IMG/VR virus record: IMGVR_UViG_3300007960_000240
Location: 1-21,663 of that record
Strand: one strand, 5' to 3'
Source: a virus
DNA: 21,663 nucleotides
Below the pieces are notes generated by a model that saw nothing but the letters and a program-made list of their open reading frames with translations, had not been told where the DNA came from and did not search any database. How positions within the stretch are numbered: position 1 is the first letter of the stretch; every line of letters starts with the position of its first letter. Made by a program: the position numbers and the translations under genes. Shown in pieces: positions 8,672 to 21,663 of the stretch.

Positions 8672-11600
8672 TCAGCCCCTGATGCGCCGCTCGGCTTCGG
8701 CGGCAATGTCCTCGAAGTCATCGGCAAGCACGGGCAACATGGCGCAGCGGCAATTCGGGTGCAGCGGCGGCCCCTGAACATCCTCGAAGTCGAGGTTCAT
8801 GCTGCCACCACCACGCACCGCCAGCGTCTCACCCTGGCTGTAGAACGGCTGGTCGAGCGGCACGCCCGCCTTGCCATAGGCTTTCGCAGCTGCGCTGCAG
8901 AACTCACAGGCGTCCGGCGCCAGCTCCCACCTCTTGCCAGTCACCAGGCCCGTGGCGCGCCAGGCGTCCTGGTTGGCCGTAGACGCGGCGCGTGCCGCCT
9001 CGGTGCGTGCAATGGTGGTTGCGCGGCGGCGCGTCATGTCGCCCGCAGCATCGTCGGCACCTTCGGCCCAAGCTTGCACGCGGTCAGCCAGCTCACCCAC
9101 CGTTTCGCCCTTGGCCAGCCCGTCGCCAAGCAGGTCGCGCACGCGCGCCTCTGTGTAGCCGTTGACCGACGCCGCCGCCCGCTGCGCCAGCGTGGTGCTG
9201 GAGCGTGCCACATAGTCCTCGAGCTGCTGGCTGCTCCAGCCCAGCTGTGCCACCGCAGGCGTGCCCGCCACGCGCTGAAGCGTGTCCATGCCCAGCGCGG
9301 CGCCGCCCTCGAGGGCGCGCGCCAGGTACGGCTGCAGCGCCTCGGTGAGGTCGCGATTCCACTTCGCGCTGCGCAGCAGGCGCGTGACCTGGTTGACCAG
9401 CTCGGTGGTGTCACCACCGCCCGCCTTGATGGCACGCACCACCTCCTGCACCTGGGTGCGCAGCACGCTGGTGGTGCCGGACAGCCAGCGCTCGAGCAGC
9501 TCGTCATTCACCAGGGCGCCCGTGTCGGCCTTGGCCAGCGCCTCCTGGTCGTGTGCCAACCACCACTCGCGATGGCTCTTGACATGGCTGCAGCCGCATG
9601 ACTTGGCCGCCTCGCGCTCACGGTCGAACTCGGCCACCTTGCGGGCCGCCCAGTCCCAGCCCTCGTCACCACCCCAGCCCATCCAAGCCTGCCACCCTGG
9701 CCCCTGCTCGTCCCAGCTCTCGCCCTGCTTGTCGGACTCATGGCGCTCGAAGTAGGCCACCATGCGCCTGATGGTCTCTTCCGACAGGGCCACCCTGTTC
9801 TGCAGGTCGCGCGCCCTGGCCAGCCCCACCTCGGTCATGCCACGCTGGCTGGCAGGCTTGGCCTCGCGCACCTCGAGCGCGCGCCGCGCATTGTCGGCAA
9901 CCTGCTGCGGCGGCACGGTGTCAATGTCCTCGAGCGCCTTGGCGCCGCCGCACATGCTGATGGCGATGGCCGTCGCCTGCTCCTGGTCGTAGCCCTCCTG
10001 CAGCAGCTTGGCAATGCCACGGGCCACGCAGTCATCCAGGCTTTCGCCTGGCTGCGGTTCAGGCTTGCGCACGGGTGCAGGTGCCGCCGCCTGCTGGGCG
10101 TCGGCCTGCGCAGGCGCGGCAGGTGCCATGGGCGTGATGGGGTCGAATATGGCGTCGAGCTGCTCGGCTGCCACGGTGGGGAAGCTGGCCCGCGCAATGG
10201 CGCGCGCCGCCTCCTTCGGCAGCTCACCAGCCTGCACAGCTGTGGCCATGTCGACCAGGCTTTGAATCTGCGCGCCGTTCAGCGCCGTGTCGGCCACCGC
10301 ATCGGCCTGCGCCGCCGCGTCGGCTGGCTGCTCAACGGTGGCGTCATCGGCCTGCGGCGCCGTGTCGGGTTCAGGCGTGGGGCTGGCTGCCGGAGCGGTG
10401 TCGGCGGGCAGCGGCACGCCTGCGCCGTATGGCATGGCCATGGGCGTGCCGCCCAGCGGCTGCCCGTTGACATGCAGCATGTCAGCGTGCGGGTCATCGA
10501 CAATGGGTTCGAGCCCCTGCTGCTCACGCGCCTCGTTCGGCGTCATCCAGCCATTCGCCACGGCTGCCTGGCGCTCGGTCAAGTCCTGCACCCTGTTGGC
10601 GGGCACAGGGTTGTCATAGGCCAGCACGGCATCGTCCTCGAGGCCGAACAAGGGAAGCAGGCGCTGGTTCAGCACCTCTTCGTCCATGCGGCACAGGGGC
10701 AGCACGGTCATCTCGCGCCAGCTGCTGAACCCAGCCTCGGCGCTGGCCAGGTTGGGGTCATTGGCCTTGAGCATGCTGACTGGCACGCCGAACACGGCTG
10801 CAATCTCCTCCACGATTTCCTCGCGCCCCTCGAGGTCTTTGCTGGGGAACTGCATCGGCTTGAGGTCTATGTCGGCTGTGGTGACAAGGAAATGACCTGT
10901 CTTCCTGTTGCCGCGCAGCTTGGCCTGAATCTGCTGCTCGAGTCCGTCCAGCTGCTCGTCGCTGGCGTTGCCCTTGACCACCAGCGCATAGTCGGGCCGC
11001 GCGTGGTTGGCGAAAAATGCCAAGTCCATTTCGTGCAGCGCGGCATTGGCCTCGGCTGCGCCCCATGCGGCCTCGAGCTTGCCCATGCCGTAGAAGAGGT
11101 CGCGCGGGTTGGGACGCTTGAAATGCAGCACCTCCGACGGCTCAAGGCGCACGCTGCTCTCGCTGCTGCGGCCATACTGGAACGCAGCGATGTAGTTCTG
11201 CTCGTCCGGCACGATGCGCGTCCATTGCGGCGGCATGGGCCACAGCTCCGACGGCACACCCAGCGCCTCGTTGGTCACGATGTGCATGTATGCGTTGCCC
11301 GTGAGCTCCTGCCACACCACGCGCAGCACGGCCAGGTCGAACCCGTTCGTGTACGGGTTGCTGCGCGCCAGCAGCTGCATGAGCGGGTGGCTGTCGGTCA
11401 CCTCCTCGAAGTCCGCGCCAAGCTCTGCCGCCTTGCGCATGACATGCTGGCTGGGCTGCTGCAGGCTGTCGCCCGCCAAATATCGCTTGACCTTGCGGCT
11501 AGCCGCCCGCGTGTTCCACAGCTTGGCACCCGTGCCGCGCGACCGGACATACATGCGCAACGGGTTGGCTGCCACCGCCTGTGCGTTGATGGTGGCCGCC

Positions 11601-11794
11601 GCATAGATCCAGCTGGAGTAGGCGGCGACGGCTGCATTGCCGTTGAACGGCTGTGGTTTCCCGTCGTGCCTCTTGTCGCCCTGCGACATGCTGGCGCGAA
11701 TGTAGGTCTGTGCGGTGGCCGCCTTGGCAACCAGGTCGCCTGCCTGCGGCACAGGTGCGGACAGCCAGCGGCGAATGGTGTGGAGTAGGGGCAT
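8672..11794 (-). CDS. Portal-MuF fusion protein
   Basis: A 1040-residue multidomain protein. Residues about 1-440 are the portal: SWIYAAATINAQAVAANPLR (61-80), NPYTNGFDLAVLRVVWQELT, EVLHFKRPNPRDLFYGMGKL, and FGVPVSMLKANDPNLASAEA near 335-354 are standard portal blocks. Residues 460-580 are an Ala/Pro/Gln-rich linker containing LNGAQIQSLVDMATAVQAGE (505-524), a helix pair common at phage portal C-termini. Residues 584-615 carry SLDDCVARGIAKLLQEGYDQ, and 649-725 carry RGMTEVGLARARDLQNRV plus a WxAWMGWGGDEGW block. Residues 760-1040 are MuF-like, ending with PDACEFCSAAAKAYGK and LHPNCRCAMLPV. The portal is the dodecameric DNA gate, and MuF-type proteins act in head morphogenesis. TGATG overlaps the terminase stop. 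Most phages encode these two functions separately. Confidence 0.9.
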   Translation of the reverse strand: MPLLHTIRRWLSAPVPQAGDLVAKAATAQTYIRASMSQGDKRHDGKPQPFNGNAAVAAYSSWIYAAATINAQAVAANPLRMYVRSRGTGAKLWNTRAASRKVKRYLAGDSLQQPSQHVMRKAAELGADFEEVTDSHPLMQLLARSNPYTNGFDLAVLRVVWQELTGNAYMHIVTNEALGVPSELWPMPPQWTRIVPDEQNYIAAFQYGRSSESSVRLEPSEVLHFKRPNPRDLFYGMGKLEAAWGAAEANAALHEMDLAFFANHARPDYALVVKGNASDEQLDGLEQQIQAKLRGNRKTGHFLVTTADIDLKPMQFPSKDLEGREEIVEEIAAVFGVPVSMLKANDPNLASAEAGFSSWREMTVLPLCRMDEEVLNQRLLPLFGLEDDAVLAYDNPVPANRVQDLTERQAAVANGWMTPNEAREQQGLEPIVDDPHADMLHVNGQPLGGTPMAMPYGAGVPLPADTAPAASPTPEPDTAPQADDATVEQPADAAAQADAVADTALNGAQIQSLVDMATAVQAGELPKEAARAIARASFPTVAAEQLDAIFDPITPMAPAAPAQADAQQAAAPAPVRKPEPQPGESLDDCVARGIAKLLQEGYDQEQATAIAISMCGGAKALEDIDTVPPQQVADNARRALEVREAKPASQRGMTEVGLARARDLQNRVALSEETIRRMVAYFERHESDKQGESWDEQGPGWQAWMGWGGDEGWDWAARKVAEFDREREAAKSCGCSHVKSHREWWLAHDQEALAKADTGALVNDELLERWLSGTTSVLRTQVQEVVRAIKAGGGDTTELVNQVTRLLRSAKWNRDLTEALQPYLARALEGGAALGMDTLQRVAGTPAVAQLGWSSQQLEDYVARSSTTLAQRAAASVNGYTEARVRDLLGDGLAKGETVGELADRVQAWAEGADDAAGDMTRRRATTIARTEAARAASTANQDAWRATGLVTGKRWELAPDACEFCSAAAKAYGKAGVPLDQPFYSQGETLAVRGGGSMNLDFEDVQGPPLHPNCRCAMLPVLADDFEDIAAEAERRIRG

Positions 11795-12993
11795 CAGATC
11801 ACCTTGAATACCAGCGGGCGTGCCTGCCTCTTGGCTGCCAGCGCCAGCGCCAGGGCGCAGACGCCATCGTCGTGGCCCGTACTTGCCTCGTATACCACGC
11901 GCCCACCCGTATATCGGAACGCGAACGAATCCAGTTCAGCGCGGAGCCAGCCGTCAGGGTAGCGCAGCTCCCGTGCCTGCAGCGCCACGGCGAGCCCTTC
12001 CATGAGCTGCTGCTTCGAGTGGCTGGTGAACTTCCAGCCCTCGGCACGCCTGCACAGGCGGGCCAGGTCTTCCACAATGGGGTCACCCACGCCCGTGCTG
12101 TCGATCATGGCTGGCACGCTGCCAATGAGCGCAGCCACACGGCTGCGCGTGGCACCCCAGTCGCTCTGCCACCGCTCGAGCACGCACACATGGCCGCTGG
12201 CGTCCAGGCCGCACACCACCGTCCAGTCGTGACTCTTGGCAAGGTCTACACCGTAGGCCACAGCTGGCTGCGTTGACTGCACGCCCACGCAGTCCCGTAT
12301 GGCCTCCGCGCCGAACGGGTTGCTGCCATCGTCGCTGGCCTCGGCCAGGTACAGCTCACGGAACACATGCTCCGGCAGCTGCCGCTGCGCGTCACGCACC
12401 TCCTCGTCAGCCAATATGCCACCGCTCACAGCATCGGCTGCGGTGAGCTTGTGGTAGGCCATGTTGGGCGTGCCAGCCTCGGCCATGCGCGCCAACCTGT
12501 AGACCCAGTTTTTCCGCCCCTTGACATTGCCGATGATGCGGCACGGGCCACGGGTTGCGGTGAGCGTGCTGCGCACCGCGTTCCATGCCTCTTCCGGGCA
12601 GCGGGTTGCCTCGTCAATCACAGCGGCGCGCACATCGTCACCGTACAGGCTGTCAGGGTTGTCGGCGCTCTTGAACCACAGGCTGGCACCGTTGACCAGC
12701 TTGATGCACAATGAGCTCTCATTGGCCTGCCAGGTGCGCTGCTGCGCGTCGGCCTGGCGCAGCATGGCCACCATGCGCATGTATGCCACCTGCTTGGCCA
12801 CAGGGTAGGTGGGCGCCACCCACCAGTAGCTGCCAGCTCCACCGTTCCAGGCTTGGGCCAGCAGCCATAGCAGGCACCCTGCGGTCTTCCCGCTCTTGGT
12901 GCTGGCCTCGATGACCACGAAACGGGCTGGGTCACAGATGGCCGCGTGCTGCTTGGGGTAGAGCGCTGGCAGCGCAGGCGGCTGCACCAGCAT
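11794..12993 (-). CDS. terL: Terminase large subunit
   Basis: A 399-residue DNA packaging motor. The ATPase has Walker A, EASTKSGKT (29-37), and Walker B, AAVIDEAT (123-130, D127 and E128). The nuclease domain carries the acidic residues expected of the RNase H fold: GVDLAKSHDWTVV (D250), AMIDSTGVGDP (D298) and GHDDGVCALALA (D375/D376). It starts at ATG 3 bp after the small terminase-like gene and shares TGATG with the portal gene. Length and motif order are normal for TerL. The protein docks on the portal and cuts concatemeric DNA. Confidence 0.93.
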   Translation of the reverse strand: MLVQPPALPALYPKQHAAICDPARFVVIEASTKSGKTAGCLLWLLAQAWNGGAGSYWWVAPTYPVAKQVAYMRMVAMLRQADAQQRTWQANESSLCIKLVNGASLWFKSADNPDSLYGDDVRAAVIDEATRCPEEAWNAVRSTLTATRGPCRIIGNVKGRKNWVYRLARMAEAGTPNMAYHKLTAADAVSGGILADEEVRDAQRQLPEHVFRELYLAEASDDGSNPFGAEAIRDCVGVQSTQPAVAYGVDLAKSHDWTVVCGLDASGHVCVLERWQSDWGATRSRVAALIGSVPAMIDSTGVGDPIVEDLARLCRRAEGWKFTSHSKQQLMEGLAVALQARELRYPDGWLRAELDSFAFRYTGGRVVYEASTGHDDGVCALALALAAKRQARPLVFKVI

Positions 12994-12996
12994 GGG

Positions 12997-13473
12997 TCAG
13001 CCTCCGGCGCCGCCGCCTGCAACCAGGGTGATAGGTGCCAGCTGCACCAGCTCGGTGGGCTGGCCACCATCAAGGCGCTCGACCTTGTCAGCCACCTGCA
13101 GCGCCGCCAGGTTGTCGCGCTGCATGGCCACCAGCACCTCGATGGCCCGCAGCCTCTCGCGGTCATTGCGGGCGGTGGCCACCACATGGGTGGCCACGCG
13201 CGGCAGGTCGCGCAGCAGCTCGGGTGCCAAGTCCCAGCCGCCATGTATGGCACGGGCCAGCAGGCGCAGGCCAGCCCGCTCATGGGTGGGCGTCACCACC
13301 TGCTGGGCCGCCTGGGGCGCCTGGGCCGCCCAGGGCGCCGCCTGGGCGCCTGGGGCCGCCTGGGGCGCCTGGGGCGCCTGGGCCGCCTGTGGCGCCGCCT
13401 GGCCGCCCTGGCGGCCCTTGGGCGCCCGCTGCTTGCGGCGCCCGCCCTGGGTGCCCTGCTTGCCCTGCTTCAT
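12997..13473 (-). CDS. Terminase small subunit candidate with low-complexity N-terminus
   Basis: A 158-residue protein immediately upstream of terL. The first 25 residues are basic (MKQGKQGTQGGRRKQRAPKG). Residues 25-60 are an Ala/Gln/Pro low-complexity stretch built of AQAPQA-type units. Residues 65-140 are a helical domain (ERAGLRLLARAIHGGWDLAP, then IEVLVAMQRDNLAALQVADK, VERLDGG) that recurs in phage proteins next to large terminases. The C-terminus is Gly/Ala-rich. Position and basic character fit a DNA-recognising small terminase, but no HTH is obvious. The start is chosen at the ATG overlapping the folE stop (ATGA) with GGAGGAG upstream. Confidence 0.6.
   Translation of the reverse strand: MKQGKQGTQGGRRKQRAPKGRQGGQAAPQAAQAPQAPQAAPGAQAAPWAAQAPQAAQQVVTPTHERAGLRLLARAIHGGWDLAPELLRDLPRVATHVVATARNDRERLRAIEVLVAMQRDNLAALQVADKVERLDGGQPTELVQLAPITLVAGGGAGG
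13300..13400 (-). repeat. GC-rich degenerate 9-bp repeat in the small-terminase gene
   Basis: A run of degenerate 9-mers of the type CTGGGGCGC, CTGGGCCGC and CTGGGCGCC (plus-strand reading). It encodes the Ala/Gln/Pro low-complexity segment. All three frames on this strand stay open across it because the repeat period is a multiple of three. It is a likely spot for copy-number variation. Confidence 0.7.
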
Positions 13474-14390
13474 GCCCACTCCTCCAGCCTGCGGCGCATG
13501 CTGTCATCACCAGCCCAATCACCGCGCAGGCACACCGTCACCATCTCGGCGTCAGGCTGCCGCACCCCACGGCAACCCATGCAGCTGTGGTGTGCCCTGA
13601 TGGCCACCCCAACGGCCAGGGCGCCAATGGCGCCCCCAAGGGTATCGGCTATTTCGCGGGTCAGCCGCTCCTGCAGCTGCGGCCTGTGCGCCAGCACCTC
13701 CACCAGGCGCGGCACCTTGGACAGGCCCACCACCCTGTCGCTGGGCAGGTAGGCCACGGTGGCCGTGCCAACGAACGGCAGCAGGTGGTGCTCACACATG
13801 CTGGTGAACCTGATGCCGCGCACATACACAGCCTGTCCGAACGGCTCGGTGAAGGTGGTGCCCAGCACGCTGGCAGGGTCAACGCCCAGCCCGTTGGTCA
13901 TCTCGCGCATGGCCTTGACCACACGCCTGGGCGTGTCGCGCAGCCCCTCGCGCGTGGGGTCTTCACCCATGCCCTCGAGCAGCCTGACCACCGCATCCTC
14001 CGGCCCGTTGCCACGCTCCCACGGGAACTGCAGCCAGGCGCTGACCTGCTCGGCTTGCGGCGCCATGCTGGCTGGGCTGTGCCTCTTGCGATACATGGCA
14101 TCGCAGCGCAGGCCAGCCTCGTGGTACGGCTGCATGGTGCGCCCGCTGTCCACCAGGTCATCAACCACCAGCACGCGCTGGCCGTCGGCCTCGAGTGCCA
14201 GCAGCTGGTTCAGGTCTGCCATGGGGAACGCCATCTCGCAGTCCAGCCAGCTTGACACCAGCATGGCCACAGGCCAGCCGCCCATGGGAATGCCGTACAC
14301 GCAGCCGATGTCCGCATGCGACCAGCGCTCGGCAATGGCCGCCGCCTGCTCACGCATTTCCCCCCACTCAACTCGCAGCGGCTCGGTCAT
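13470..14390 (-). CDS. folE: Gpt-like phosphoribosyltransferase fused to GTP cyclohydrolase I
   Basis: A 306-residue two-domain protein. Residues 1-125 are a type I phosphoribosyltransferase: YGIPMGGWPVAMLVSS (32-47) and the PRPP-binding signature VLVVDDLVDSGRT (73-85). The segment SAWLQFPWERG (117-127) echoes the WIEQPWDMG end of E. coli Gpt (xanthine-guanine phosphoribosyltransferase). Residues 129-306 are FolE: TSMCEHHLLPF (C199, H202 zinc; H201), VVGLSKVPRL, HRPQLQERLT, and HHSCMGCRGVR (C270 as third zinc ligand, H268). FolE makes 7,8-dihydroneopterin triphosphate from GTP, the first step to preQ0. The Gpt part may supply guanine nucleotides or recycle guanine released by DpdA. It follows queE with an ATGA overlap and SD GGAGGG. 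Zinc and catalytic residues look intact. Confidence 0.9.
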   Translation of the reverse strand: MTEPLRVEWGEMREQAAAIAERWSHADIGCVYGIPMGGWPVAMLVSSWLDCEMAFPMADLNQLLALEADGQRVLVVDDLVDSGRTMQPYHEAGLRCDAMYRKRHSPASMAPQAEQVSAWLQFPWERGNGPEDAVVRLLEGMGEDPTREGLRDTPRRVVKAMREMTNGLGVDPASVLGTTFTEPFGQAVYVRGIRFTSMCEHHLLPFVGTATVAYLPSDRVVGLSKVPRLVEVLAHRPQLQERLTREIADTLGGAIGALAVGVAIRAHHSCMGCRGVRQPDAEMVTVCLRGDWAGDDSMRRRLEEWA

Positions 14391-15034
14391 CGCACCCTCC
14401 AGCTCTTGTGCTGCTGAACCGACAGGCGCCAGTCAGGGTGGCGCCGCACCAGCTCGAGGCACCACTCCATGGTGCGCCTGTCCACCGCCAGGCCGTCGTG
14501 CGCTGGGCTGATGAGCTGGTGGTCTGCCACCACCACGGTGCGAGGTATCGCCTGCCCGTAGCCGCGCACATACTTGACCTCATTCGCGCGGCGCTGCTTG
14601 ATGGCATGCTCGGCCACCTTGGGGCTCACCGTCACCCAGTCAAGCTCGAGGTGGTCAAGGTTGATGCTGCCGTTCGTCTCAATGGCCACGCGCATGCCAG
14701 CGTCGTGCAGCGCGGCACACAGCCTGGCGTCGACCTGCAGCCCAGGCTCACCGCCAGTCAGCACCACCCACGGGCGCCAGCCAGCTGGCGGCTCACCGCC
14801 GATGCCGTGCCGCAGCTCGTCATGCAGCAGCTGCAGCACCTGCTCAAGCTCGAGCGCGCGCCCGCTCTCAAACTCCGTGTCGCAGTCAAAGCCTCCGGGC
14901 GACTTGTCGCCAGGCTCCACCCTGCAACGCATGTTGCACCCAGTCAGGCGCAGGAACAGGCTCATCTCGCCAGCCCTCATGCCCTCGCCCTGCGGGCTGT
15001 AGAAGCACTCGTTCACCCTGTATGTGTCAGCCAT
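14387..15034 (-). CDS. queE: 7-carboxy-7-deazaguanine synthase QueE
   Basis: A 215-residue radical SAM enzyme that converts 6-carboxytetrahydropterin into 7-carboxy-7-deazaguanine. Residues 11-18 (FYSPQGEG) and 25-40 (SLFLRLTGCNMRCRVE) are the family entry. Three cysteines are C33, C37 and C51, the last in GGFDCDTEF, so spacing is C-x3-C-x13-C rather than the common C-x3-C-x2-C. Other family blocks are TGGEP (93-97), ETNGS (119-123), VSPK (137-139 region) and the C-terminal QQHK (207-210). The ATG overlaps queD by 22 bp, with GGAGG about 10 bases upstream. It acts between QueD and QueC in one operon. Confidence 0.92.
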   Translation of the reverse strand: MADTYRVNECFYSPQGEGMRAGEMSLFLRLTGCNMRCRVEPGDKSPGGFDCDTEFESGRALELEQVLQLLHDELRHGIGGEPPAGWRPWVVLTGGEPGLQVDARLCAALHDAGMRVAIETNGSINLDHLELDWVTVSPKVAEHAIKQRRANEVKYVRGYGQAIPRTVVVADHQLISPAHDGLAVDRRTMEWCLELVRRHPDWRLSVQQHKSWRVR

Positions 15035-15426
15035 TGCGCACAGTCCTCCAGCTGGGCCACCACGGTGGCGCTGTCCGTCTCCTGCAGCTCGAGCGCCACC
15101 ACCTGCGGCAGCCGCTCATGGCAGCGCTGCAGCAGCAGCGCGGCCAGGCACTCCGCGCTCGTCGGGCACGGCAGCACCACACACTCCGGCACGGCGCACG
15201 CCACCGCGTCCTGGCGCCACGCCAGCGTGCGGTGGTCGAGCTCCTCGAACACGGGCGCGATGGCGGCGTCAATCTCCGCGAACAGCACGCCCACGGCTGC
15301 GCTGCCAGGCTGCACCTGCAGGTGAACCTCCACACCGTATCGGTGCCCATGCAGCCGCGCACACTTGTCCTGCAGCATGTGGTTGCGGTGGGCAGCGTAG
15401 AACCGGAACCGACGCTTGATGATCAC
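15013..15426 (-). CDS. queD: 6-carboxytetrahydropterin synthase QueD
   Basis: A 137-residue member of the PTPS family that turns dihydroneopterin triphosphate into 6-carboxytetrahydropterin. Zinc ligands are H13 (AAHRN), H26 and H28 (LHGHRYG). The catalytic Cys is C22 (DKCARLHGH), LDH with D64 and H65 forms the rest of the relay, and E116 in LQETDSATV binds the pterin. It starts at GTG, overlapping the QueC stop (GTGA), with SD GGAGG about 6 bases upstream. The length is normal for QueD (about 120-140). Confidence 0.92.
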   Translation of the reverse strand: MIIKRRFRFYAAHRNHMLQDKCARLHGHRYGVEVHLQVQPGSAAVGVLFAEIDAAIAPVFEELDHRTLAWRQDAVACAVPECVVLPCPTSAECLAALLLQRCHERLPQVVALELQETDSATVVAQLEDCAQWLTHTG

Positions 15427-16088
15427 GCTGCACCTCCGCTGGCGTATTCGGTGTGGTCAGGCACGCCCGCCAGCTCGAACGCCTCTCGGCGCTCGACACA
15501 GGTGCCGCACCGCCCGCAATGTATGGCGCCACCCTCGTAGCAGCTCCATGACTTGTGCATGGGTGCGCCCAGCAGGTCGCCGCGCACCACAATGTCGTGC
15601 TTCGTCATCAGCACGAACGGCGCCAGCAGCTCGAACTGGCTGGCGCCCCAGTTCCCCATGCGCACGGCCTGCTGCATGACCTGCATCCACATGGGCCTGC
15701 AGTCAGGGTAGATGGCGTGGTCGCCAGCGTGCGCCGCGATTGACACAGCGTCCATGTCATGGCTGATCGCCAGGGCCGACGCCAGGCACACGAAGGTGGC
15801 GTTGCGGCTGGGCACCACCGTCTGCTTCATGCTCTCATGCGCGTAGTGCCCATGCGGCACGCTGCCGTGCCCAGTCAGCGCGCTGCGCGTGACTGCGCAC
15901 AGGTCAACCCTGACCAGCGTGTGCGGCACACCGCAGGCCGCTGCCAGCTCCTGCGCCCAGTCCAGCTCACGCCTGTGACGCTGACCGTAGTCAAAGCTGA
16001 TGGCACGCACCTCATCACCCTGCTCAAGGTGGTGCGTCAACAGCACCGTGCTGTCCAGGCCGCCGCTCAAAGACACGACTACACGCAT
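15423..16088 (-). CDS. queC: 7-cyano-7-deazaguanine synthase QueC
   Basis: A 221-residue ATP-dependent enzyme that makes preQ0 from 7-carboxy-7-deazaguanine and ammonia, through an amide intermediate. The PP-loop SLSGGLDST lies at residues 6-14. HESMKQTVVPSRNATFV (84-100), GDHAIYPDCRP (122-132) and LLAPFVLMTKHDIV (154-167) are QueC blocks. The zinc site is C183, C191, C194 and C197 (SWSCYEGGAIHCGRCGTC). The start ATG at 16088 has SD GGAGG and overlaps the dpdA end. No glutamine amidotransferase domain is attached, so this is plain QueC, not the Gat-QueC that leads to archaeosine-type bases. Confidence 0.94.
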   Translation of the reverse strand: MRVVVSLSGGLDSTVLLTHHLEQGDEVRAISFDYGQRHRRELDWAQELAAACGVPHTLVRVDLCAVTRSALTGHGSVPHGHYAHESMKQTVVPSRNATFVCLASALAISHDMDAVSIAAHAGDHAIYPDCRPMWMQVMQQAVRMGNWGASQFELLAPFVLMTKHDIVVRGDLLGAPMHKSWSCYEGGAIHCGRCGTCVERREAFELAGVPDHTEYASGGAA

Positions 16089-16924
16089 GCATCCTCCGGT
16101 TCCGCAGGCAGCCTGCCGCGCAGCCTGCTGTACTCGTTCCACACCATGTTGAGGTCTACGCTGCCGCTCAAGTACATGCGCGTGCCCAGGTTGGCGCGCA
16201 CCTGCGCCGACACGGCCACATGCGAGGCGACGGTGATGCGGGCCGCCAGGCTGCGCCCGCCTCGCCAGCTGCCGTCCTTGCGCAGGTCTGCAATGTCGTA
16301 GCCCAGCCTGGCGATGCCTGACGCTATGGCTGGGCTGATGCGGCCCACCAGGTCGCTGCGCTGGAACGCCTGCAGCACGCCACCACCAATGTGCAGCTCA
16401 CACCTGCCATAGCGCAGGGCGCCCGTGTAGTTCGAGCTATCGCAGCTGTATGGCCGGAGCGCCTTGAGTACCGACAGCCTGTTGACGCCCAGCAGGTGGA
16501 CGGCCTGCTTGGCCAGGTGGTCGCGCATGCGCATGAGGTACGGCACGGGCGTCTGCCCCTTGCGCACCAGTCCGCCAATGCACACCACGGGCGAGGTGCT
16601 GGCGTACTCGGCCAGCGCGTCGGGGCTGTCTCCCCGCGTCCACACGGGCACGGGCTGCAGCCCCTGCGCGCGCATCTCCAGGTAGTTCTGCCTGGTGCGC
16701 ACAGGGTCGCCAATGACATCGAGCGCCACATACATGTGCGGGCGCACGGGCAGCGCCTTGAGGAAAGCGATGTAGTCCTGCAGCACAATGGGCCGCCCTG
16801 ACTGCCAGGCTGTAAAGGCGCCGCTGTCCACCATGAGCTCTACGGCGCTGCCCATGCGCGCGATGCCATCGACCGCCTTGGCGTTCAGGTACGGGTATGC
16901 GATCAGCAGGCGCAGCCTACTCAA
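16079..16924 (-). CDS. dpdA: DNA 7-deazaguanine transglycosylase DpdA
   Basis: A 281-residue TGT-superfamily enzyme predicted to replace guanine in DNA with preQ0. Motifs include MVDSGAFTAW (31-40, D33 as TGT-type Asp), YVALDVIGDP (65-74), VCIGGLV (114-120), HLLGV (143-147) and YSCDSSNY (159-166, D162 as the likely nucleophile). This order, in place of tRNA-TGT features, is the phage DpdA pattern. No CxCxxC zinc site or RNA-binding domain is visible, unlike tRNA TGT (about 370 residues). I choose a TTG start at 16924 because the frame before it is the antisense-shifted shadow of the ParB-like gene, GGAG lies 6 bases upstream, and it overlaps the ParB stop by 8 bp. Neighbours are all deazaguanine genes. 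Confidence 0.88.
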   Translation of the reverse strand: MSRLRLLIAYPYLNAKAVDGIARMGSAVELMVDSGAFTAWQSGRPIVLQDYIAFLKALPVRPHMYVALDVIGDPVRTRQNYLEMRAQGLQPVPVWTRGDSPDALAEYASTSPVVCIGGLVRKGQTPVPYLMRMRDHLAKQAVHLLGVNRLSVLKALRPYSCDSSNYTGALRYGRCELHIGGGVLQAFQRSDLVGRISPAIASGIARLGYDIADLRKDGSWRGGRSLAARITVASHVAVSAQVRANLGTRMYLSGSVDLNMVWNEYSRLRGRLPAEPEDACV

Positions 16925-17498
16925 CCACGGCTCCGGCGAACGGCGCCACGGCTGCCCGCACGGCATCGGCCACGGCCTCGCGGTCTGCCTCGTCACAGCG
17001 CACCGTGATGGTGGCTGGTGCAGCGGCTGGCTCCAGCTGTGCCTCGAGCCGCTCCAGCTCGGCCTCCGGCAGCTCCCATGTGCCAATGACCGCCTGCAGC
17101 TCACCCTCGGTGAAGTACGGCGCCAGGTCAACCTCCTGCGCAAGCTTGCCCAGGACGGCTGCGTCCCACTCGGCCAGCTCTGCCGTTCGGTTGTCGGCCA
17201 CCGCATATGCCACGGCCTCGGCGTCAGCCAGGCTGGTGCGCACCGCGTCAATGTGCGTCCAGCCCAGGGCACGCGCCGCCTGCAGCGTGGCGTTGCCTGC
17301 CAGCACCACGCCATCGGCGCTGACCACAATGGGCCGCTGCTGGCCGAATCGCTCCAGGCTTGCCTGCACCGCCTCGAGGTTGCGCGGCCCGTGCAGCCTG
17401 GCGTTGCGCGGGTCTAGCTGCAGCTCGCCTGTGGCCAGGCGTTCAATGCGGCTCCCTGACCCTCGCGGGCTGTTGTCTGCAGGTACGGTCTTCGCCAT
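16917..17498 (-). CDS. ParB-like nuclease-domain protein, DpdA partner candidate
   Basis: A 193-residue protein with the ParB/Srx N-terminal domain at about 20-140: LDPRNARLHGPRNLEAVQAS (28-47), FGQQRPIVVSADGVVLAGNA (51-70, GN in place of the usual GH), LGWTHIDAVRTSL, and VADNRTAELAEWDAAVLGKL (100-119). The ADNR-x-EL-WD block is the one found where ParB-like domains precede phage DNA methylases, not in chromosome-partition ParB. Residues 162-193 form a short C-terminal unit. It is first in the modification operon, behind a promoter, with SD GGAGG 4 bases upstream, and its end overlaps dpdA by 8 bp. No HTH or Walker ATPase partner is present, so partitioning is unlikely. I infer a role in DNA recognition for DpdA. 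Confidence 0.8.
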   Translation of the reverse strand: MAKTVPADNSPRGSGSRIERLATGELQLDPRNARLHGPRNLEAVQASLERFGQQRPIVVSADGVVLAGNATLQAARALGWTHIDAVRTSLADAEAVAYAVADNRTAELAEWDAAVLGKLAQEVDLAPYFTEGELQAVIGTWELPEAELERLEAQLEPAAAPATITVRCDEADREAVADAVRAAVAPFAGAVVE

Positions 17499-17510
17499 GT
17501 TGCCTCCGCG

Positions 17511-17522
17511 CTGTGCGCACAG
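17511..17522 (-). promoter_or_regulatory. 12-bp palindrome at the operon start (operator candidate)
   Basis: The perfect palindrome CTGTGCGCACAG lies just downstream of the predicted -10 box, where transcription should begin, and before the ParB-like gene's ribosome site. Such placement suits an operator or a short 5' hairpin. The regulator is unknown. Confidence 0.4.
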
Positions 17523-17524
17523 GC

Positions 17525-17553
17525 ATCATGCACCGCTCATGGCGGGCCGTCAA
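17525..17553 (-). promoter_or_regulatory. Sigma70-like promoter of the modification operon
   Basis: On the minus strand TTGACG (17553 to 17548, 5 of 6 to consensus), a 17-bp spacer, then CATGAT (17530 to 17525, 4 of 6). It lies in the only gap between the fibre gene and the ParB-like gene and should start transcription of the deazaguanine and packaging genes. Confidence 0.55.
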
Positions 17554-17554
17554 C

Positions 17555-18346
17555 CTATCGGCTGACCACCATGCGCAGCGCCAGCAGGTCTGTGTAGGCC
17601 AGCCTGGCGGTGGTGCCTGCGGTCTTGATGAGGCCAACGGTCACACCAGTCTCGCGCCCGCTGCCGCTGGGCAGGCCGCTGGTGGCCTGGTAGACCAGGC
17701 TGCCGTCGATGTAGAAGTCAGCGCCGCTGGCGTCAGCGGCAACCACGATTCGGAAGCTGTGCCAGCTGGTGTCGCCTGGCACGCCCGTGTCCTGGGGGCC
17801 AGCCGACACGCCCGCGCTGTAGACCTCCACCTGCCAGTTCCCGCTGCCCACGCTGTGCGTGTAGCTGAAGAAAGCTCCATCGAGCGGGTTGGTGGCGTTC
17901 CTGCGGTCGAAAAAGCCCACGCGCGCGCTGAACCCATTGGTGGCGTCCGACAGCGCGCCCAGCCGGAACACGCACAGCAGGTCATGCAAGCTCGTGCCGA
18001 ATCGCGTGTCGGCCACGCTGGCGCTGCCCACGCCTGCGTAGCCCGTGGCCGTGGTGCCCGTGCTGTGGCTGATGATGCCCTGGTGGGTGCCGTCGCCCGT
18101 GTTCGAGAAACTGTTGGTCGCGCCTGTGCCTGCGCCGTGGTTGAACCAGTCACCCAAGTTCACGAAGTCGCTGTACAGCTGCACGACGCGCGACCAGTCG
18201 GGCAACCACTCGAGCTGCAGGCTGCCCTGGGCGCCACCGTCGGTGAGCTGCACATGGTCGCCAGCCGTCAGCTGCCTGGCCTGTGGCAGGTTGCTGGCGC
18301 CGCTGGTGATGAAGCTGGCGGCCTCGAGTGGTGGCAGGTACCTCAT
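17555..18346 (-). CDS. Lectin-like tail fibre / receptor-binding protein candidate
   Basis: A 263-residue protein starting MRYLPPLEAASFITSGASNL, rich in Gly, Ser, Thr and aromatic residues. The body reads as a concanavalin-like jelly roll: LQLEWLPDWSRVVQLYSDFV, then the C-terminal WHSFRIVVAADASGADFYID, GSLVYQATSGLP and YTDLLALRMVV. The strand pattern IVVAADASGADFYIDG is typical of LamG-like phage fibre domains. It overlaps the lipoprotein stop (ATGA) and precedes the promoter. Function as a host-contact protein is inferred from composition. It could instead be another virion surface protein. Confidence 0.6.
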   Translation of the reverse strand: MRYLPPLEAASFITSGASNLPQARQLTAGDHVQLTDGGAQGSLQLEWLPDWSRVVQLYSDFVNLGDWFNHGAGTGATNSFSNTGDGTHQGIISHSTGTTATGYAGVGSASVADTRFGTSLHDLLCVFRLGALSDATNGFSARVGFFDRRNATNPLDGAFFSYTHSVGSGNWQVEVYSAGVSAGPQDTGVPGDTSWHSFRIVVAADASGADFYIDGSLVYQATSGLPSGSGRETGVTVGLIKTAGTTARLAYTDLLALRMVVSR

Positions 18347-18585
18347 GGCGCCTCCTCGACCCAGCGTGGGCTGACCAGGTAGTAGCCCTCCGGCAGGGGC
18401 ACGGCCTGCCCTGACAGCTGCCAGGTGCCATCGGCCTGCAGCGTGTACAGCCTGGCCTTGGCACCAGGGCCGATGCGGGCGGGCGCGGAGTCACCCACCA
18501 GCACCACCCTGGGTGCGCAGCCAATCGCGCACGCGCTGGCCAGCAGCGCGCATGCCGTCAATGTCCTGCTTCGCGTCTGTGGCAA
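18343..18585 (-). CDS. Rz1-like lipoprotein (o-spanin candidate)
   Basis: An 80-residue protein if started at TTG 18585, which has GGAGAGAGG upstream. It has a basic n-region (MPQTRSRT), a hydrophobic stretch and lipobox-like sites at C19 (LLASAC) and C23 (AIGC). The mature part is PRVVLVGDSAPARIGPGAKA followed by LYTLQADGTW and LPEGYYLVSP. The CAPRVVLVG opening and LPEGYY end are a known phage lipoprotein pattern of Rz1-like size. It begins inside the preceding membrane gene in another frame, like Rz1 within Rz. Such proteins reach the outer membrane, so a Gram-negative host is implied. A later TTG (18561) is a weaker start. Confidence 0.65.
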   Translation of the reverse strand: MPQTRSRTLTACALLASACAIGCAPRVVLVGDSAPARIGPGAKARLYTLQADGTWQLSGQAVPLPEGYYLVSPRWVEEAP

Positions 18586-18661
18586 CGGTGCCTCTCTCCA
18601 TGCGTCGGGCAACCCAGTCAAGCAGGGCCACGGCAAGAGCGGCCACGATGCGCTCAAGCAT
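18491..18661 (-). CDS. Small membrane protein paired with the lipoprotein
   Basis: A 56-residue protein starting MLERIVAALAVALLDWVARR. One N-terminal membrane segment (4-17) is followed by a charged helix (MERGTVATDAKQDIDGMRAA, then GQRVRDWLRTQ). The ATG overlaps the holin-like gene by 8 bp. It hosts the lipoprotein start in an alternate frame. The layout recalls Rz/Rz1 spanins, but 56 residues is too short to span the periplasm, so a spanin role is doubtful. It may be a membrane accessory. Confidence 0.6.
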   Translation of the reverse strand: MLERIVAALAVALLDWVARRMERGTVATDAKQDIDGMRAAGQRVRDWLRTQGGAGG

Positions 18662-18866
18662 CGGGTGCCGTGGCGCCAGCCTGCTCGCTGGTGACCTGGT
18701 TGTCTCTTGCGGCCAGCAGGCCGATGCCCGCAATCACGGCAGCGGCTGCGGTGCCCCAGTCTGCCATGGTGGTGGGGTCGCCGTCCAGCTCGGCCATGAG
18801 CACGGTGGCCAGGGCTGCGACGATTGACAGCACGCCTGTGACGGTGGTGCGCCAGCTCTTCTGCAT
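18654..18866 (-). CDS. Holin-like membrane protein
   Basis: A 70-residue protein with two membrane segments (about 8-25, TVTGVLSIVAALATVLMA; and about 38-53, GTAAAAVIAGIGLLAA) and a C-terminal tail RDNQVTSEQAGATAPDA. The RDNxVTSEQAG ending is common in small phage membrane proteins next to lysis genes. Size and topology are those of a class II-like holin, which permeabilises the inner membrane. SD GGAG lies about 6 bases before the ATG. The endolysin is not visible in this window. Call by topology and context. Confidence 0.6.
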   Translation of the reverse strand: MQKSWRTTVTGVLSIVAALATVLMAELDGDPTTMADWGTAAAAVIAGIGLLAARDNQVTSEQAGATAPDA

Positions 18867-18878
18867 TGGTGTCTCCTG

Positions 18879-18889
18879 CCGCTGTGCGG
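18879..18889 (-). other. Short intergenic hairpin with CCGCACAGCGG core
   Basis: The 11-base element CCGCTGTGCGG (plus strand) can form a small hairpin (CCGC/GCGG, loop TGT) between the beta-rich protein stop and the holin-like gene's ribosome site. The same 11 bases occur in the leader of the glycosyltransferase gene (6059-6069). Its function is unknown. Confidence 0.35.
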
Positions 18890-18892
18890 CTG

Positions 18893-19144
18893 TTATGCCG
18901 GATCTGCCCACCAGCTCACGGCACCTGCCGTGAACGCCAGGGTGGCCTGGTCGAGCCGGATGATGCCGACATCGACGGGCTGGTTGCTGGGCAGCGTGAT
19001 GGCGCTGTTGGTGTCGCCCGTCGGGTGCAGCGTGATGGCTGCCGACGAGTTGAACAGGGCCAGCCTGTGAGGCTCGTCAATGTTGGCCTGCAGCACGGGC
19101 GACTGCGTGGTGGTGATTGAGATTGAGTTGATCTTGATTGCCAT
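18893..19144 (-). CDS. Small beta-rich protein B, paralogue of its neighbour
   Basis: An 83-residue protein starting MAIKINSISITTTQSPVLQA. It is mostly beta strand: LALFNSSAAITLHP, SAITLPSNQPVDVG, and TLAFTAGAVSWW at the end. Its second half aligns with the preceding gene's middle (SAIITI-x-SIILPSGQ against AAITLH-x-SAITLPSNQ, then GEVSLW against GAVSWW), so the two look like tandem duplicates. SD GAGG precedes the ATG. Unknown function; perhaps a virion surface piece. Confidence 0.7.
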   Translation of the reverse strand: MAIKINSISITTTQSPVLQANIDEPHRLALFNSSAAITLHPTGDTNSAITLPSNQPVDVGIIRLDQATLAFTAGAVSWWADPA

Positions 19145-19151
19145 GTGAACC

Positions 19152-19487
19152 TCATAAAGGAGCTGGTGCTGGTTTATTGCCTCCACTCCCGCCGCCAGCT
19201 GCCGCGCCACCTGCAGGCATGGTGCCAACCCACCTGCCCAGCATGCGCATGTGTCTCTTGGGCGGTTCTGTCCACAGGCTAACCTCGCCGCTGAAGACCG
19301 TGACGCCCACAAGGTCAAGCTGTGCCAGGCCCAGCCGCATCACCTGTCCGCTGGGCAGAATGATGCTGGTGGTGCCGATGGTGATGATGGCGCTGCCCGA
19401 CGCATGCACCGATAGCAGCTCGGAGCTACCCTCCGGCGCATTGGTGAACGGGCTACCCGTGGCGCTGATCTTGGTGTAGTACGGCAT
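19152..19487 (-). CDS. Small beta-rich protein A with Gly-rich tail
   Basis: A 111-residue protein starting MPYYTKISATGSPFTNAPEG. Residues 20-75 are a beta-rich module (ASGSAIITIGTTSIILPSG, LAQLDLVGVTVFSGEVSLW) shared with the next gene. The C-terminal 35 residues are Gly/Ala/Pro-rich (TMPAGGAAAGGGSGG), a flexible tail. The start is in a TGATG overlap with the coiled-coil membrane gene. Function unknown. Confidence 0.7.
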   Translation of the reverse strand: MPYYTKISATGSPFTNAPEGSSELLSVHASGSAIITIGTTSIILPSGQVMRLGLAQLDLVGVTVFSGEVSLWTEPPKRHMRMLGRWVGTMPAGGAAAGGGSGGNKPAPAPL

Positions 19488-19741
19488 CAGCGCCCAGCCT
19501 CCAGGCGCTCGATGCGTTCACGCAGGTGGTCAAGCTCGCGCTGGGCGTTCGCCTGCCCGCTGGCGCTGGCCACCTGGGCCTTCGTCAAGTCCTGCACAAT
19601 GTTGGCCAGCTCTTCAACACGCACCGTGTTGACCGTGAGGCGCTCGTCGCGACGGCCTGCTTCGGCGCCGAAGTACGCCATGCCGCCCACTATGCTGCCC
19701 AGCTGCACCAGGTTGATGACGCGGTCAACGGTGACGGTCAT
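19487..19741 (-). CDS. Coiled-coil membrane protein
   Basis: An 84-residue protein with one predicted membrane segment (about 9-26, INLVQLGSIVGGMAYFGA), a basic boundary (GRRDER) and a coiled coil to the end (about 36-82, with VRVEELANIVQDLTKAQ and RELDHLRERIERLEAGR). The start at the ATGA overlap with the resolvase gene replaces an upstream alternative. Membrane segment plus coiled coil near holin-like and lipoprotein genes suggests a lysis or envelope accessory, but no specific family is sure. Confidence 0.65.
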   Translation of the reverse strand: MTVTVDRVINLVQLGSIVGGMAYFGAEAGRRDERLTVNTVRVEELANIVQDLTKAQVASASGQANAQRELDHLRERIERLEAGR

Positions 19742-20085
19742 AGCACCGTCTCCGCTCTTGCCCGCACCAGCTCCTCGGCCAGGTCTACGAGTCGGTCGAG
19801 CCGCACGGCTAGCACCCATCGCGTGTCACCGTCCTCTCTGTACAGCGTGACAGGTATGGCACCGCCTGGTGCGTCATGTTCGGCCTGCCGCAGGTAGTCC
19901 ATGGCGGCAATGCGGCGCCGCCTCTTGACCTCCACATGCACCTGCCCAGGCACCGTCACAATGTCGGGGCTGTCCGGCCCACCACGGTGCTGGCAGCCAC
20001 GATGCGACAGCAGGCCCGTGGCCTGCAACCAGGCGGCTGCAGCCTCGCGTTCACCGTTGGCACCCTTGCGTCGGGCATTGGTCAT
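19738..20085 (-). CDS. PDDEXK nuclease, Holliday junction resolvase-like
   Basis: A 115-residue protein starting MTNARRKGANGEREAAAAWL. The pattern RRKGANGEREAA (E12), RGCQHRGGPDSPDIVTV (D41) and HVEVKRRRRIAAMDYLRQA (E52, K54) is the PD-(D/E)xK core in the Hjc-like arrangement. It probably cuts branched DNA made during phage replication or before packaging. It follows the double-hairpin intergenic region and has GGGGG close to the ATG. All catalytic residues are present. Precise substrate is inferred from family resemblance. Confidence 0.75.
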   Translation of the reverse strand: MTNARRKGANGEREAAAAWLQATGLLSHRGCQHRGGPDSPDIVTVPGQVHVEVKRRRRIAAMDYLRQAEHDAPGGAIPVTLYREDGDTRWVLAVRLDRLVDLAEELVRARAETVL

Positions 20086-20123
20086 GCCCCCAGTCTATCG
20101 GCCAACCTAGGCCACCAATGCAG

Positions 20124-20150
20124 CAGCGGCGCCCTTGTGAGGCGCCGCTG
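20124..20150 (-). repeat. Hairpin sharing arms with the 6039-6066 hairpin
   Basis: Perfect 10-bp arms CAGCGGCGCC and GGCGCCGCTG with a 7-base loop. The same arm sequences form the centre of the hairpin before the glycosyltransferase gene, with a different loop, so this is a repeated structured element. No T-tract follows it on the minus strand. Confidence 0.6.
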
Positions 20151-20155
20151 TGAAA

Positions 20156-20187
20156 GGCGCTGGCGTGCGGGTGCGCACGCCAGCGCC
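20156..20187 (-). terminator. Rho-independent terminator candidate
   Basis: A perfect 14-bp stem, GGCGCTGGCGTGCG (20156-20169) with CGCACGCCAGCGCC (20174-20187), loop of four. On the minus strand it lies about 20 bases after the small gene's TAA and is followed by TTTC. This fits termination of the five-gene block to its right. Confidence 0.65.
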
Positions 20188-20205
20188 CAAGAGGATAGAT
20201 GCGGG

Positions 20206-20403
20206 TTATGCCTCGGGCGGCGGCTCGAGGTGTGGGCGCATGCTAGGCCGAAACTCCACCAGCCACGCATAGGCGTCACGCCACGCGGCCACATGCTTGG
20301 CGCGCTGGGGCGCGTCGGCCTCGAGCCGCATGAGCTGCTGCTTGGCCCAATGCAGGCGGCGCACGGCCACCTCGGTGCGGCGAATCAGGGTTGCCAGCCT
20401 CAC
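20206..20403 (-). CDS. Small helical protein, unknown function
   Basis: A 65-residue protein from the GTG at 20403, chosen because it overlaps the previous stop (GTGA). It starts MRLATLIRRTEVAVRRLHWA and contains W-rich helical segments (KHVAAWRDAYAWLVEFRP), ending in an acidic-proline tail. It is the last gene before the terminator. No family recognised. Confidence 0.6.
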   Translation of the reverse strand: MRLATLIRRTEVAVRRLHWAKQQLMRLEADAPQRAKHVAAWRDAYAWLVEFRPSMRPHLEPPPEA

Positions 20404-20591
20404 GCCACCACCTCCACCACCTGGTTGCGCGTGATGAACCAGCTGCTGTCGCACATGGCGCCAACGCCACAGACCCACAAGCTGACGGTGGCATCAGCGT
20501 CCAGGGCCAGCACGCGGCCCTCCAGCACGGTGCCATCGGTGTGCGTGAACCGGATCAGGCTGCTCTCGCGGAGGGTGGTAGGCTTGCGCAT
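20400..20591 (-). CDS. Small beta-rich protein, unknown function
   Basis: A 63-residue protein starting MRKPTTLRESSLIRFTHTDG. The body looks like a small SH3/Sm-like barrel: IRFTHTDGTVLEGRVLALDA, TVSLWVCGVG, and SSWFITRNQVVEVVA. The ATG at 20591 has SD AGGAG about 7 bases upstream, which decides the start over a longer reading. Unknown role; it may bind nucleic acid. Confidence 0.65.
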   Translation of the reverse strand: MRKPTTLRESSLIRFTHTDGTVLEGRVLALDADATVSLWVCGVGAMCDSSWFITRNQVVEVVA

Positions 20592-20654
20592 GGCTGACTC
20601 CTGTGTGCGGCTCGGCGCCGCGTGCCTGGCCCCAGCATGGGGCACGGGTACAGC

Positions 20655-20960
20655 CTACCTGCCGCCTGCCTGGCGGTCAAGAGGCTTGGCCATGGATTCG
20701 GCGCGGGTGCCCACCAGCTGCAGCCAGCCCTGCCGTTCTCGCCAATGCAGCAGCCGCCAGGCGTGCAGGTGCTGCCCCACCATGGCCTGGCTGCAGCCCA
20801 TAAGCTTGGCCAGCTGGTCGCTGCCCAACGGCAGGGGCGGCAGCTCGGCCAGGCAGCCAGCCAGGGTGCTGCTGTCATGCCGTTCGGTGTGGTCGTAGCC
20901 GCAGGGCGGCACCAGCGACCTCCATGCCTGCAGCACATGGTGCGCCCCCACCGTGGTCAC
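20655..20960 (-). CDS. Winged-helix-like small protein 2
   Basis: A 101-residue protein from GTG 20960, taken because of the GTGA overlap with the preceding gene. The start reads MTTVGAHHVLQAWRSLVPPC. An HTH-like region is at about 43-75: PLPLGSDQLAKLMGCSQAMV then GQHLHAWRLLHWRERQGWLQ, with a wing-like WLQLVG. The pattern suits a small DNA-binding protein. The C-terminus is basic (KPLDRQAGGR). Target unknown. Confidence 0.6.
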   Translation of the reverse strand: MTTVGAHHVLQAWRSLVPPCGYDHTERHDSSTLAGCLAELPPLPLGSDQLAKLMGCSQAMVGQHLHAWRLLHWRERQGWLQLVGTRAESMAKPLDRQAGGR

Positions 20961-21286
20961 AGCGCGCCCCCAGGCCGCGCCTGCGCCGCCACGCACACAA
21001 TGCGCGCGCGCCCTGCGGCGCCTGCACGGGTGCGCCCTGCGGGCACAATGGCGCCCGCCTTGCGCAGCTCCCCGCACCGTTTCCACCAGCAGCTGGTGGC
21101 TGGCAGGTCTGCCAGCTGTGCCGCCTCCTCGTCGGTCAGGCCGTCGCTGCCTGCCAGCTCATACTGGCGCAGCAGCAGCTGGTGCGCTGGCGTGGTGCAG
21201 GGCAGGCTGTCTCCGGCAGCCTGGCTGGTGGCGTGCCCGTTGCGGCGCGCCCTGCCCATGGTGGCCCACAATGGCAGGTCAGTCAT
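20957..21286 (-). CDS. Winged-helix-like small protein 1
   Basis: A 109-residue protein starting MTDLPLWATMGRARRNGHAT at ATG 21286, with AGGAGGG upstream. The core at about 47-95 (SDGLTDEEAAQLADLPATSC, then WWKRCGELRKAGAIVPAGRT) is a winged-helix fold pattern found in small phage proteins, with a basic Arg-rich wing (RTRAGAAGRARIVC). It overlaps its right neighbour by 8 bp. Function may be transcription control or DNA binding; not proven. Confidence 0.65.
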   Translation of the reverse strand: MTDLPLWATMGRARRNGHATSQAAGDSLPCTTPAHQLLLRQYELAGSDGLTDEEAAQLADLPATSCWWKRCGELRKAGAIVPAGRTRAGAAGRARIVCVAAQARPGGAL

Positions 21287-21659
21287 CCTCACCCTCCTCA
21301 AGCTCGAGTTCCCCCAGCTCGAGCTGCAGGGCTGACCAGCGCTCCTCGTTCAGGCACGGGTAGACCTCGAGCCGCTCGGCCAGCCTGTCGGCAACCTGCA
21401 GCTGCTTGGCTGCATCGCTGGCAATGGCCACCCACTCAACCCAGCCGCACAGGAAATGATTCTCCCGCACGACGGTCACAGCCTCACCGTCCTCGCCGCC
21501 AAGCTCCTCGAGCTGCACCTGCCAGTTCGATAGCTCCAGGCTGTCGCTGTCTCGGCTCCGGCCAACGGGTGCCACATAGTGGCCTTCCCAGGTGGCGCCG
21601 TGGTAGTAGCGCGGCATGCTCCACAGCCGCAGCCTGGCTGGTGTGTATGCGTTGCTCAT
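21279..21659 (-). CDS. Conserved phage protein, unknown function
   Basis: A 126-residue protein starting MSNAYTPARLRLWSMPRYYH. The pattern SMPRYYHGATWEGHYV, PVGRSRDSDSLELSNW, VVRENHFLCGWVEWVAI and YPCLNEERWS recalls a protein family seen in many phages but of unknown function. The C-terminus is very acidic (ELGELELEEGEDD). It is complete here; only 4 bases remain to the window edge. Confidence 0.75.
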   Translation of the reverse strand: MSNAYTPARLRLWSMPRYYHGATWEGHYVAPVGRSRDSDSLELSNWQVQLEELGGEDGEAVTVVRENHFLCGWVEWVAIASDAAKQLQVADRLAERLEVYPCLNEERWSALQLELGELELEEGEDD

Positions 21660-21663
21660 CGGC

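Follow-up and report, generated by a model that had tools for sequence, protein, structure and literature searches.

A purine phosphoribosyltransferase domain fused to GTP cyclohydrolase I in viral preQ0/DpdA DNA-modification cassettes and its possible role in guanine recycling

When a phage modifies its DNA by base exchange, what happens to the guanine that is removed, and what is the source of the guanosine triphosphate (GTP) needed for thousands of new bases? This question, which we have not seen posed for base-exchange modification, is raised by a cassette in the IMG/VR virus record IMGVR_UViG_3300007960_000240, which we analysed over its full 21,663 bases (a record in its own right, hereafter the window, to whose positions all coordinates refer unless another locus is named). 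On the minus strand, from 17498 to 13470, six overlapping genes encode, in this order, a ParB-like protein, the base-exchange enzyme DpdA, QueC, QueD, QueE and a two-domain protein (13470..14390) in which a phosphoribosyltransferase (PRT) domain precedes GTP cyclohydrolase I (FolE). Neither the layout nor the predicted modification, deoxy-preQ0 (dPreQ0), is new in kind. The recurrent PRT, in contrast, is apparently an unremarked component: in the open-access literature, to which our search was confined (subscription papers lay outside its scope), we found no paper mentioning a link between a PRT and FolE or preQ0 cassettes. A preliminary description of this DNA had named the domain in its label ‘Gpt-FolE’ but had not raised why a purine PRT should be fused to FolE, which we regard as the informative feature. 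Judged from sequence, the best overall explanation is a DNA-hypermodification operon in which the PRT-FolE fusion recycles guanine, to which we assign a rough probability of 0.6.

Two parts of this scheme are established, namely the synthesis of preQ0 (7-cyano-7-deazaguanine) from GTP by FolE, QueD, QueE and QueC, and DpdA-catalysed base exchange, whose mechanism most likely resembles that of tRNA-guanine transglycosylase (TGT) (PMC6884629). In the window phage, these four enzymes would make preQ0, and DpdA would swap it for guanine in the phage DNA, thereby freeing the guanine. The PRT fused to FolE would then combine guanine with phosphoribosyl pyrophosphate (PRPP) to give guanosine monophosphate (GMP), which cellular kinases would convert to GTP, the FolE substrate for the next preQ0. 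As each inserted preQ0 would displace one guanine from the DNA and each preQ0 made would cost one GTP, the loop would close one to one and spare the host GTP pool. If this is true, a phage would replace the guanines of its DNA while taking little GTP, on balance, from that pool, a saving that is relevant when a large share of genome guanines is replaced.

The PRT domain, which is of the xanthine-guanine type, comprises residues 1–127 of the fusion (14010..14390, minus strand; PF00156, E = 3e-7; PRK09177 XPRT, 3e-7). A profile of nine such sequences matched the solved purine PRT 1vdm (2e-18) and Escherichia coli xanthine-guanine phosphoribosyltransferase (XGPRT, Gpt; 1a95, 3e-14), and enzymes of the latter type are its closest solved relatives. 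The phage domain shares the PRPP loop, the Lys and the W..PW(E/D) motif with E. coli Gpt and the archaeal 1vdm, yet it is shorter (112–134 residues in most copies against 152–153), is fused to FolE and, in the window, carries Met for Arg in the RGG loop. The PRPP loop of the window copy reads DDLVDSGRT (DD..D.G.T), and K102 and W119, which match purine-contact positions of XGPRT, are present. In loci that had not been sampled by PRT, the loop residues D77, D78, D81, G83 and T85 (window numbering) are kept in 51–55 of 55 copies, K102 in 53 of 56 and W119 in 54 of 56. D81, which we take to match the Asp that contacts N7 of the purine in the E. coli enzyme, is kept in 142 of 144 copies. An AlphaFold2 (AF2) model of the whole fusion has a predicted local distance difference test score (pLDDT) of 94.8 and a predicted template modelling score of 0.84. 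Its FolE half (13470..14009, minus strand; PF01227, 1e-61) matches solved GTP cyclohydrolases in a Foldseek search (Mycobacterium tuberculosis FolE 9p8z, 2e-21), and C199, H201, H202, H268 and C270 of FolE are invariant across 57 fusions. From the conserved residues, the PRT domain is probably catalytically active on a purine; we would give an even chance that the guanine it recycles is that released by DpdA.

How regularly does this domain accompany FolE? We annotated viral and bacterial loci with profiles built in this analysis and counted a PRT as linked when it was fused to FolE or lay within 1.5 kb of it (L003:8221-9160, a wrong-frame sequence in alignment A2, was left out afterwards). 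In a set sampled by DpdA, whose query alignment was headed by the sequence of Gordonia phage Sour, a phage without PRT, the domain is linked in 31 of the 67 cassettes that combine DpdA and FolE with two or more Que genes, and fusion is seen in 28 of the 32 loci containing both domains. Among viral cassettes sampled by FolE, it is fused or beside FolE in 20 of 70. By contrast, only one of 80 bacterial FolE loci has a PRT near FolE, although the fusion itself served as the query for retrieving these control loci, which favours PRT discovery; that single locus is a phage-like contig with the order ParB-QueD-QueE-PRT-FolE. The differences from the control give Fisher p values of 4e-12 (DpdA-sampled) and 1e-6 (FolE-sampled). 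This order is carried by L275 (5031-8849), a contig of a Thermoguttaceae metagenome-assembled genome, which probably represents a phage or prophage binned with a planctomycete.

The PRT occurs in about one third to one half of the viral cassettes sampled, and its arrangement varies. Fusions occur in the cultured Nipunavirus phages PaMx25, NP1, Quinobequin-P09 and DoCa3, Stenotrophomonas phage Bhz54, Vibrio phages VpKK5 and 1.207.B and Sphingomonas phage MMDA13; a separate PRT gene adjoins FolE upstream in contig L006 and in Flavobacterium phage immuto (QueD-QueE-PRT-FolE-DpdA-QueF), and downstream in Brevundimonas phage StAshley. An approximate tree built from 156 viral FolE sequences requires 25 or more changes of PRT state. 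Given these several arrangements and state changes, the link is not the accident of one shared ancestor. The annotations in cultured phages read only ‘GTP cyclohydrolase’ or ‘phosphoribosyltransferase’, the former even in the well-studied PaMx25, NP1 and Quinobequin-P09. We tentatively propose, at somewhat less than even odds, a previously unrecognised recycling step in phage 7-deazaguanine hypermodification, in which a Gpt-like PRT fused to or beside FolE would return DpdA-ejected guanine to GTP. Since cultured phages exist both with and without the PRT domain, the idea is directly testable.

Several observations weigh against this reading. A PRT is absent from at least half of the DpdA cassettes and is hence dispensable, and phages without it may use host salvage. 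In the window itself, Met replaces the usual Arg of the PRT RGG loop, a residue present in 117 of 144 relatives and lost in 22 of 87 fused members, and position 96 of DpdA, equivalent to H132 of phage CAjan, carries Thr in place of the His found in 58 of 62 relatives. Given both substitutions, a lowered or altered activity of the window copies is possible from their sequences. We know of no published status of this DpdA position as a defining residue; the Thr could alter base specificity or rate. A Foldseek search with the AF2 model of DpdA (pLDDT 89.7) returned no TGT structure at E <= 0.001, its best matches being weak and partly TIM-barrel. As regards sampling, FolE is present in 62 of 80 PRT-sampled loci and linked in 59 of these (33 fused, 13 with the PRT upstream, 13 downstream), a rate that is biased upward, unlike the DpdA- and FolE-sampled rates, because the query (A1) was built mainly from FolE-linked PRTs; and the bacterial control consists of genomes of another kind than phages without DpdA.

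Furthermore, the PRT tracks FolE more closely than DpdA, and among the 11 DpdA loci that have no more than one Que gene it occurs once, FolE being present there too; this pattern fits a general GTP supply as well as it fits DpdA-derived guanine. Such a general role, in which the PRT would salvage any free guanine or hypoxanthine for FolE and not specifically the guanine released by DpdA, is a serious rival, albeit one we consider unlikely. It agrees with Brevundimonas phage StAshley, where FolE-PRT adjoins ribonucleotide reductase and deoxynucleoside monophosphate kinase with no DpdA within the 12 kb read, and with Cellulophaga phage phiST, where a related PRT stands beside RNase H, near ribonucleotide reductase, with no FolE nearby. 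However, general salvage would not need a fusion to FolE, whereas in DpdA cassettes the fused state is the most frequent; DpdA exchange, moreover, must free guanine one for one and is the most obvious new source of this base during infection. That the PRT is instead non-catalytic and serves FolE as a regulatory or scaffolding domain that senses PRPP or GMP, much as the GTP cyclohydrolase feedback regulatory protein (GFRP) regulates the animal enzyme, would suit the fusion and the lost RGG-loop Arg, but appears improbable, as almost all fused copies keep the PRPP-loop residues and the Lys and Trp at purine-contact positions, and the PRT is also found as a separate gene.

The remaining two alternatives concern the fate of preQ0. 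A PRT that makes preQ0 ribonucleotide, opening a nucleotide route to modified DNA, is very unlikely: preQ0, like other 7-deaza bases, has no N7, so that the conservation of D81, the presumed N7-contacting Asp, disfavours it as a PRT substrate, and nearly all PRT-bearing loci in the DpdA- and FolE-sampled sets carry DpdA too. This route would nevertheless be in keeping with the finding that some viruses without DpdA modify their DNA with 7-deazaguanines (PMC6884629). We give marginally less credence still to a cassette that raises host tRNA queuosine instead of modifying phage DNA. While preQ0 is also a queuosine precursor and a tRNA role has been proposed for phages with the pathway but no DpdA (PMC6884629), the operon considered here does contain DpdA, the profile of this DpdA family matches a solved DNA-guanine transglycosylase, and the DpdA of 9g could not substitute for E. 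coli Tgt (PMC6884629).

The genes of the hypermodification operon, for which we prefer the reading with guanine recycling, are real. Each overlaps the next by 4–22 bases, and between the window and a sister record described below the cassette shows 14 synonymous and 3 non-synonymous codon changes, where neutrality would give about three non-synonymous changes for each synonymous one (p about 1e-6); this excess of synonymous changes, a mark of purifying selection, shows that the frames are genuine. The six overlapping minus-strand genes directly upstream of terS and terL that the preliminary description had listed were all recovered at their positions, with strong profile matches.

The first gene encodes the ParB-like protein (16917..17498, minus strand; 193 residues; phrog_620, 4e-30). 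In 38 of 79 DpdA-sampled loci, a gene of this type is situated no more than 1.5 kb from DpdA, and from this linkage the protein probably recruits DpdA to DNA or sets its target. DpdA itself (16079..16924, minus strand; 281 residues, TTG start; phrog_887, 8e-31) belongs to a family whose profile has as its only match among PDB sequences at E <= 0.5 the entry 7ui4, a DNA-guanine transglycosylase (3.5e-9). D33, D69, D162 and H143 are conserved in 61, 60, 62 and 62 of 62 aligned sequences, D162 being the presumed nucleophile and H143 the equivalent of CAjan H187. Some single cassettes hold tandem, diverged DpdA genes, three in L003 (7377-10906) and two in 12 of 79 DpdA-sampled loci; besides L003, tandems occur in L019 (670-2751), L126, L131, L133, L136, L138, L140-L142, L157, L158, L166 and L179. 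Such paralogues might differ in target or base. Inside the DpdA cluster of L003, at about 9560-10001 on the plus strand, lies an open reading frame (ORF) for a membrane protein (MGYVLIALYLLVIVVANQIV...) that looks like a YhhQ/VUT-type preQ0 transporter and is a candidate for this function.

QueC (15423..16088, minus strand; 221 residues; PF06508, 2e-60; TIGR00364 above cut-off) lacks an amidotransferase (Gat) domain. The canonical enzyme is defined by SGGxDS, YxQxHxxE, VPxRN, YPDC and a zinc motif C(x)8CxxCxxC with an essential Tyr (PMC13329287). The window protein has SGGLDS, YGQRHRRE, VPSRN, YPDC and CY-x6-CxxCxxC; thus, the Tyr is kept and the first spacing, C(x)7, is one residue shorter than canonical, as it also is in Gordonia phage Sour. 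QueD, the 6-carboxytetrahydropterin synthase (15013..15426, minus strand; 137 residues, GTG start), is matched by PF01242 (1.5e-20) and, below cut-off, by TIGR03367 (2e-15).

QueE (14387..15034, minus strand; phrog_2076, 9e-30; TIGR04508, 3e-39, below the model cut-off) has an unusual cluster motif, CX3C-X13-C, which is neither CX3CX2C nor CX14CX2C: all three Cys are kept, the third being displaced by a 13-residue loop. Its closest solved relative, QueE of Burkholderia multivorans (4njg, CX14CX2C), matches over nearly the full length (7.5e-29), but has the second Cys at the end of the loop, where the window protein has it at the start. The X13 form is common to the relatives L031, L036 and L037, and across viral QueE loci the spacing before the third Cys ranges from X2 to X35. 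We read the X13 loop as tolerated rather than as damage; the odd QueE was rejected as a ground for doubting the pathway, since the displaced Cys is found in relatives too and viral spacing varies widely. The radical S-adenosylmethionine (SAM) cluster loop of viral QueE is unusually variable, with loops of 35 residues (L052, L054, L055, L083, L091, L094), 7 residues (L026 and kin) or 18 residues (L068, L079, L087, L106, L109). The earlier statement that the active-site residues of the cassette are intact consequently holds for QueC, FolE and most DpdA residues, but has to be amended for T96 of DpdA, the third Cys of QueE after X13 and the RGG-loop Met of the PRT.

Which base would this cassette produce? 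The minimal set of FolE, QueD, QueE, QueC and DpdA gives dPreQ0, as shown in phages Rosebush and CAjan (PMC6884629). The window has the gene content of the second group of that study, the preQ0/DpdA cassettes: DpdA together with FolE, QueD, QueE and QueC, and neither QueF/QueF-L nor Gat-QueC. The sister record (G001; locus L272) has 32,336 bases, is 99.5–99.6% identical over the shared part and extends past both window ends. It holds the whole window region in circularly permuted form (related window parts 1-205 and 18272-21663), and an overlap of 70 bases between its two ends suggests that the genome is complete, with a length of about 32.3 kb and a circularly permuted form. Neither QueF above cut-off nor a preQ0 transporter (YhhQ) was found in the window, in this sister genome or in G006, a more distant relative. 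One QueF match in G006 (2e-4, below cut-off) lies inside the FolE frame and was attributed to cross-matching of related folds. A tailoring gene hidden outside the window was rejected, given a sister genome without QueF or YhhQ, and ten larger ORFs of its part absent from the window are replication and recombination genes or have no match. ArcS did not turn up in PHROG scans of the larger ORFs, no search by that name having been made. Since the complete sister genome lacks QueF, dPreQ0 is the best prediction, and it is very likely, from gene content, that the phage DNA carries this base. This part of the earlier interpretation stands, on the strength of a complete pathway plus DpdA as in Rosebush and CAjan. 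A prophage reading was rejected, no integrase being found. In the sister phage, a CsrA-family protein is encoded at L272 3764-3952 on the minus strand (PF02599, 2.8e-6, just over cut-off).

The closest known layout is that of Gordonia phage Sour (NC_042132), with the identical order ParB-DpdA-QueC-QueD-QueE-FolE on one strand, followed directly by TerL. The proteins have nevertheless diverged: DpdA and QueE are only about 26–27% identical to those of the window, FolE of Sour has no PRT domain, its QueE has CX3CX2C and its DpdA keeps His at window position 96. Microbacterium phage Nicole72 is a close variant of this order, with two DpdA genes and a QueC of Gat-QueC length. Mycobacterium phage Rosebush has the same minimal gene set and dPreQ0 in its virion DNA (PMC6884629). 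The same N-terminal PRT on FolE, with preQ0 genes and DpdA adjacent, is found in Nipunavirus/Queuovirinae (PaMx25, NP1, Quinobequin-P09, DoCa3), Bhz54, VpKK5 and MMDA13. These cassettes differ, however, in having the order QueE-QueC-QueD-PRT-FolE-DpdA beside sliding clamp and DNA polymerase genes, in lacking ParB and, in some, in having Gat-QueC. Among DpdA-sampled IMG/VR loci, ParB-DpdA-QueC-QueD-QueE-(PRT)-FolE is one of the commonest orders, with and without PRT.

The end of FolE overlaps by 10 bases with a terS-like ORF (12997..13479, minus strand), which was assigned by position only; a family scan gave a single weak, low-complexity match, and its N-terminus is of low complexity and rich in Ala, Gln, Pro and Gly (APQAAQAPQAPQAA...). 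It is followed by the terminase large subunit gene terL (11794..12993, minus strand; phrog_2, 2.5e-29; PF03237 and PF17289 above cut-off) and, beyond this, by genes for a portal-MuF protein, a protease and the major head protein. The preliminary description had taken the absence of a visible terminator between the cassette and terS/terL to suggest modification timed with late gene expression. We rejected this timing as unsupported. Throughout 11500-21663, a consensus scan detected not a single terminator-like site on the minus strand, which makes the lack of one next to terS hardly informative. The sister genome has its replication-initiation, Erf and exonuclease VIII genes on the strand that also carries the head genes; hence, neither strand nor the lack of terminators distinguishes early from late expression. 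In other phages the cassette adjoins DNA polymerase instead. A weak promoter-like sequence 27 bases upstream of parB (17525..17553, minus strand) is suggestive only by position, this being one site against 0.6 expected by chance in 11500-21663. Finally, between the head-completion genes and the major head protein gene, the window encodes a protein of 392 residues (4856-6034, minus strand) whose N-terminus weakly resembles SAM methyltransferases.

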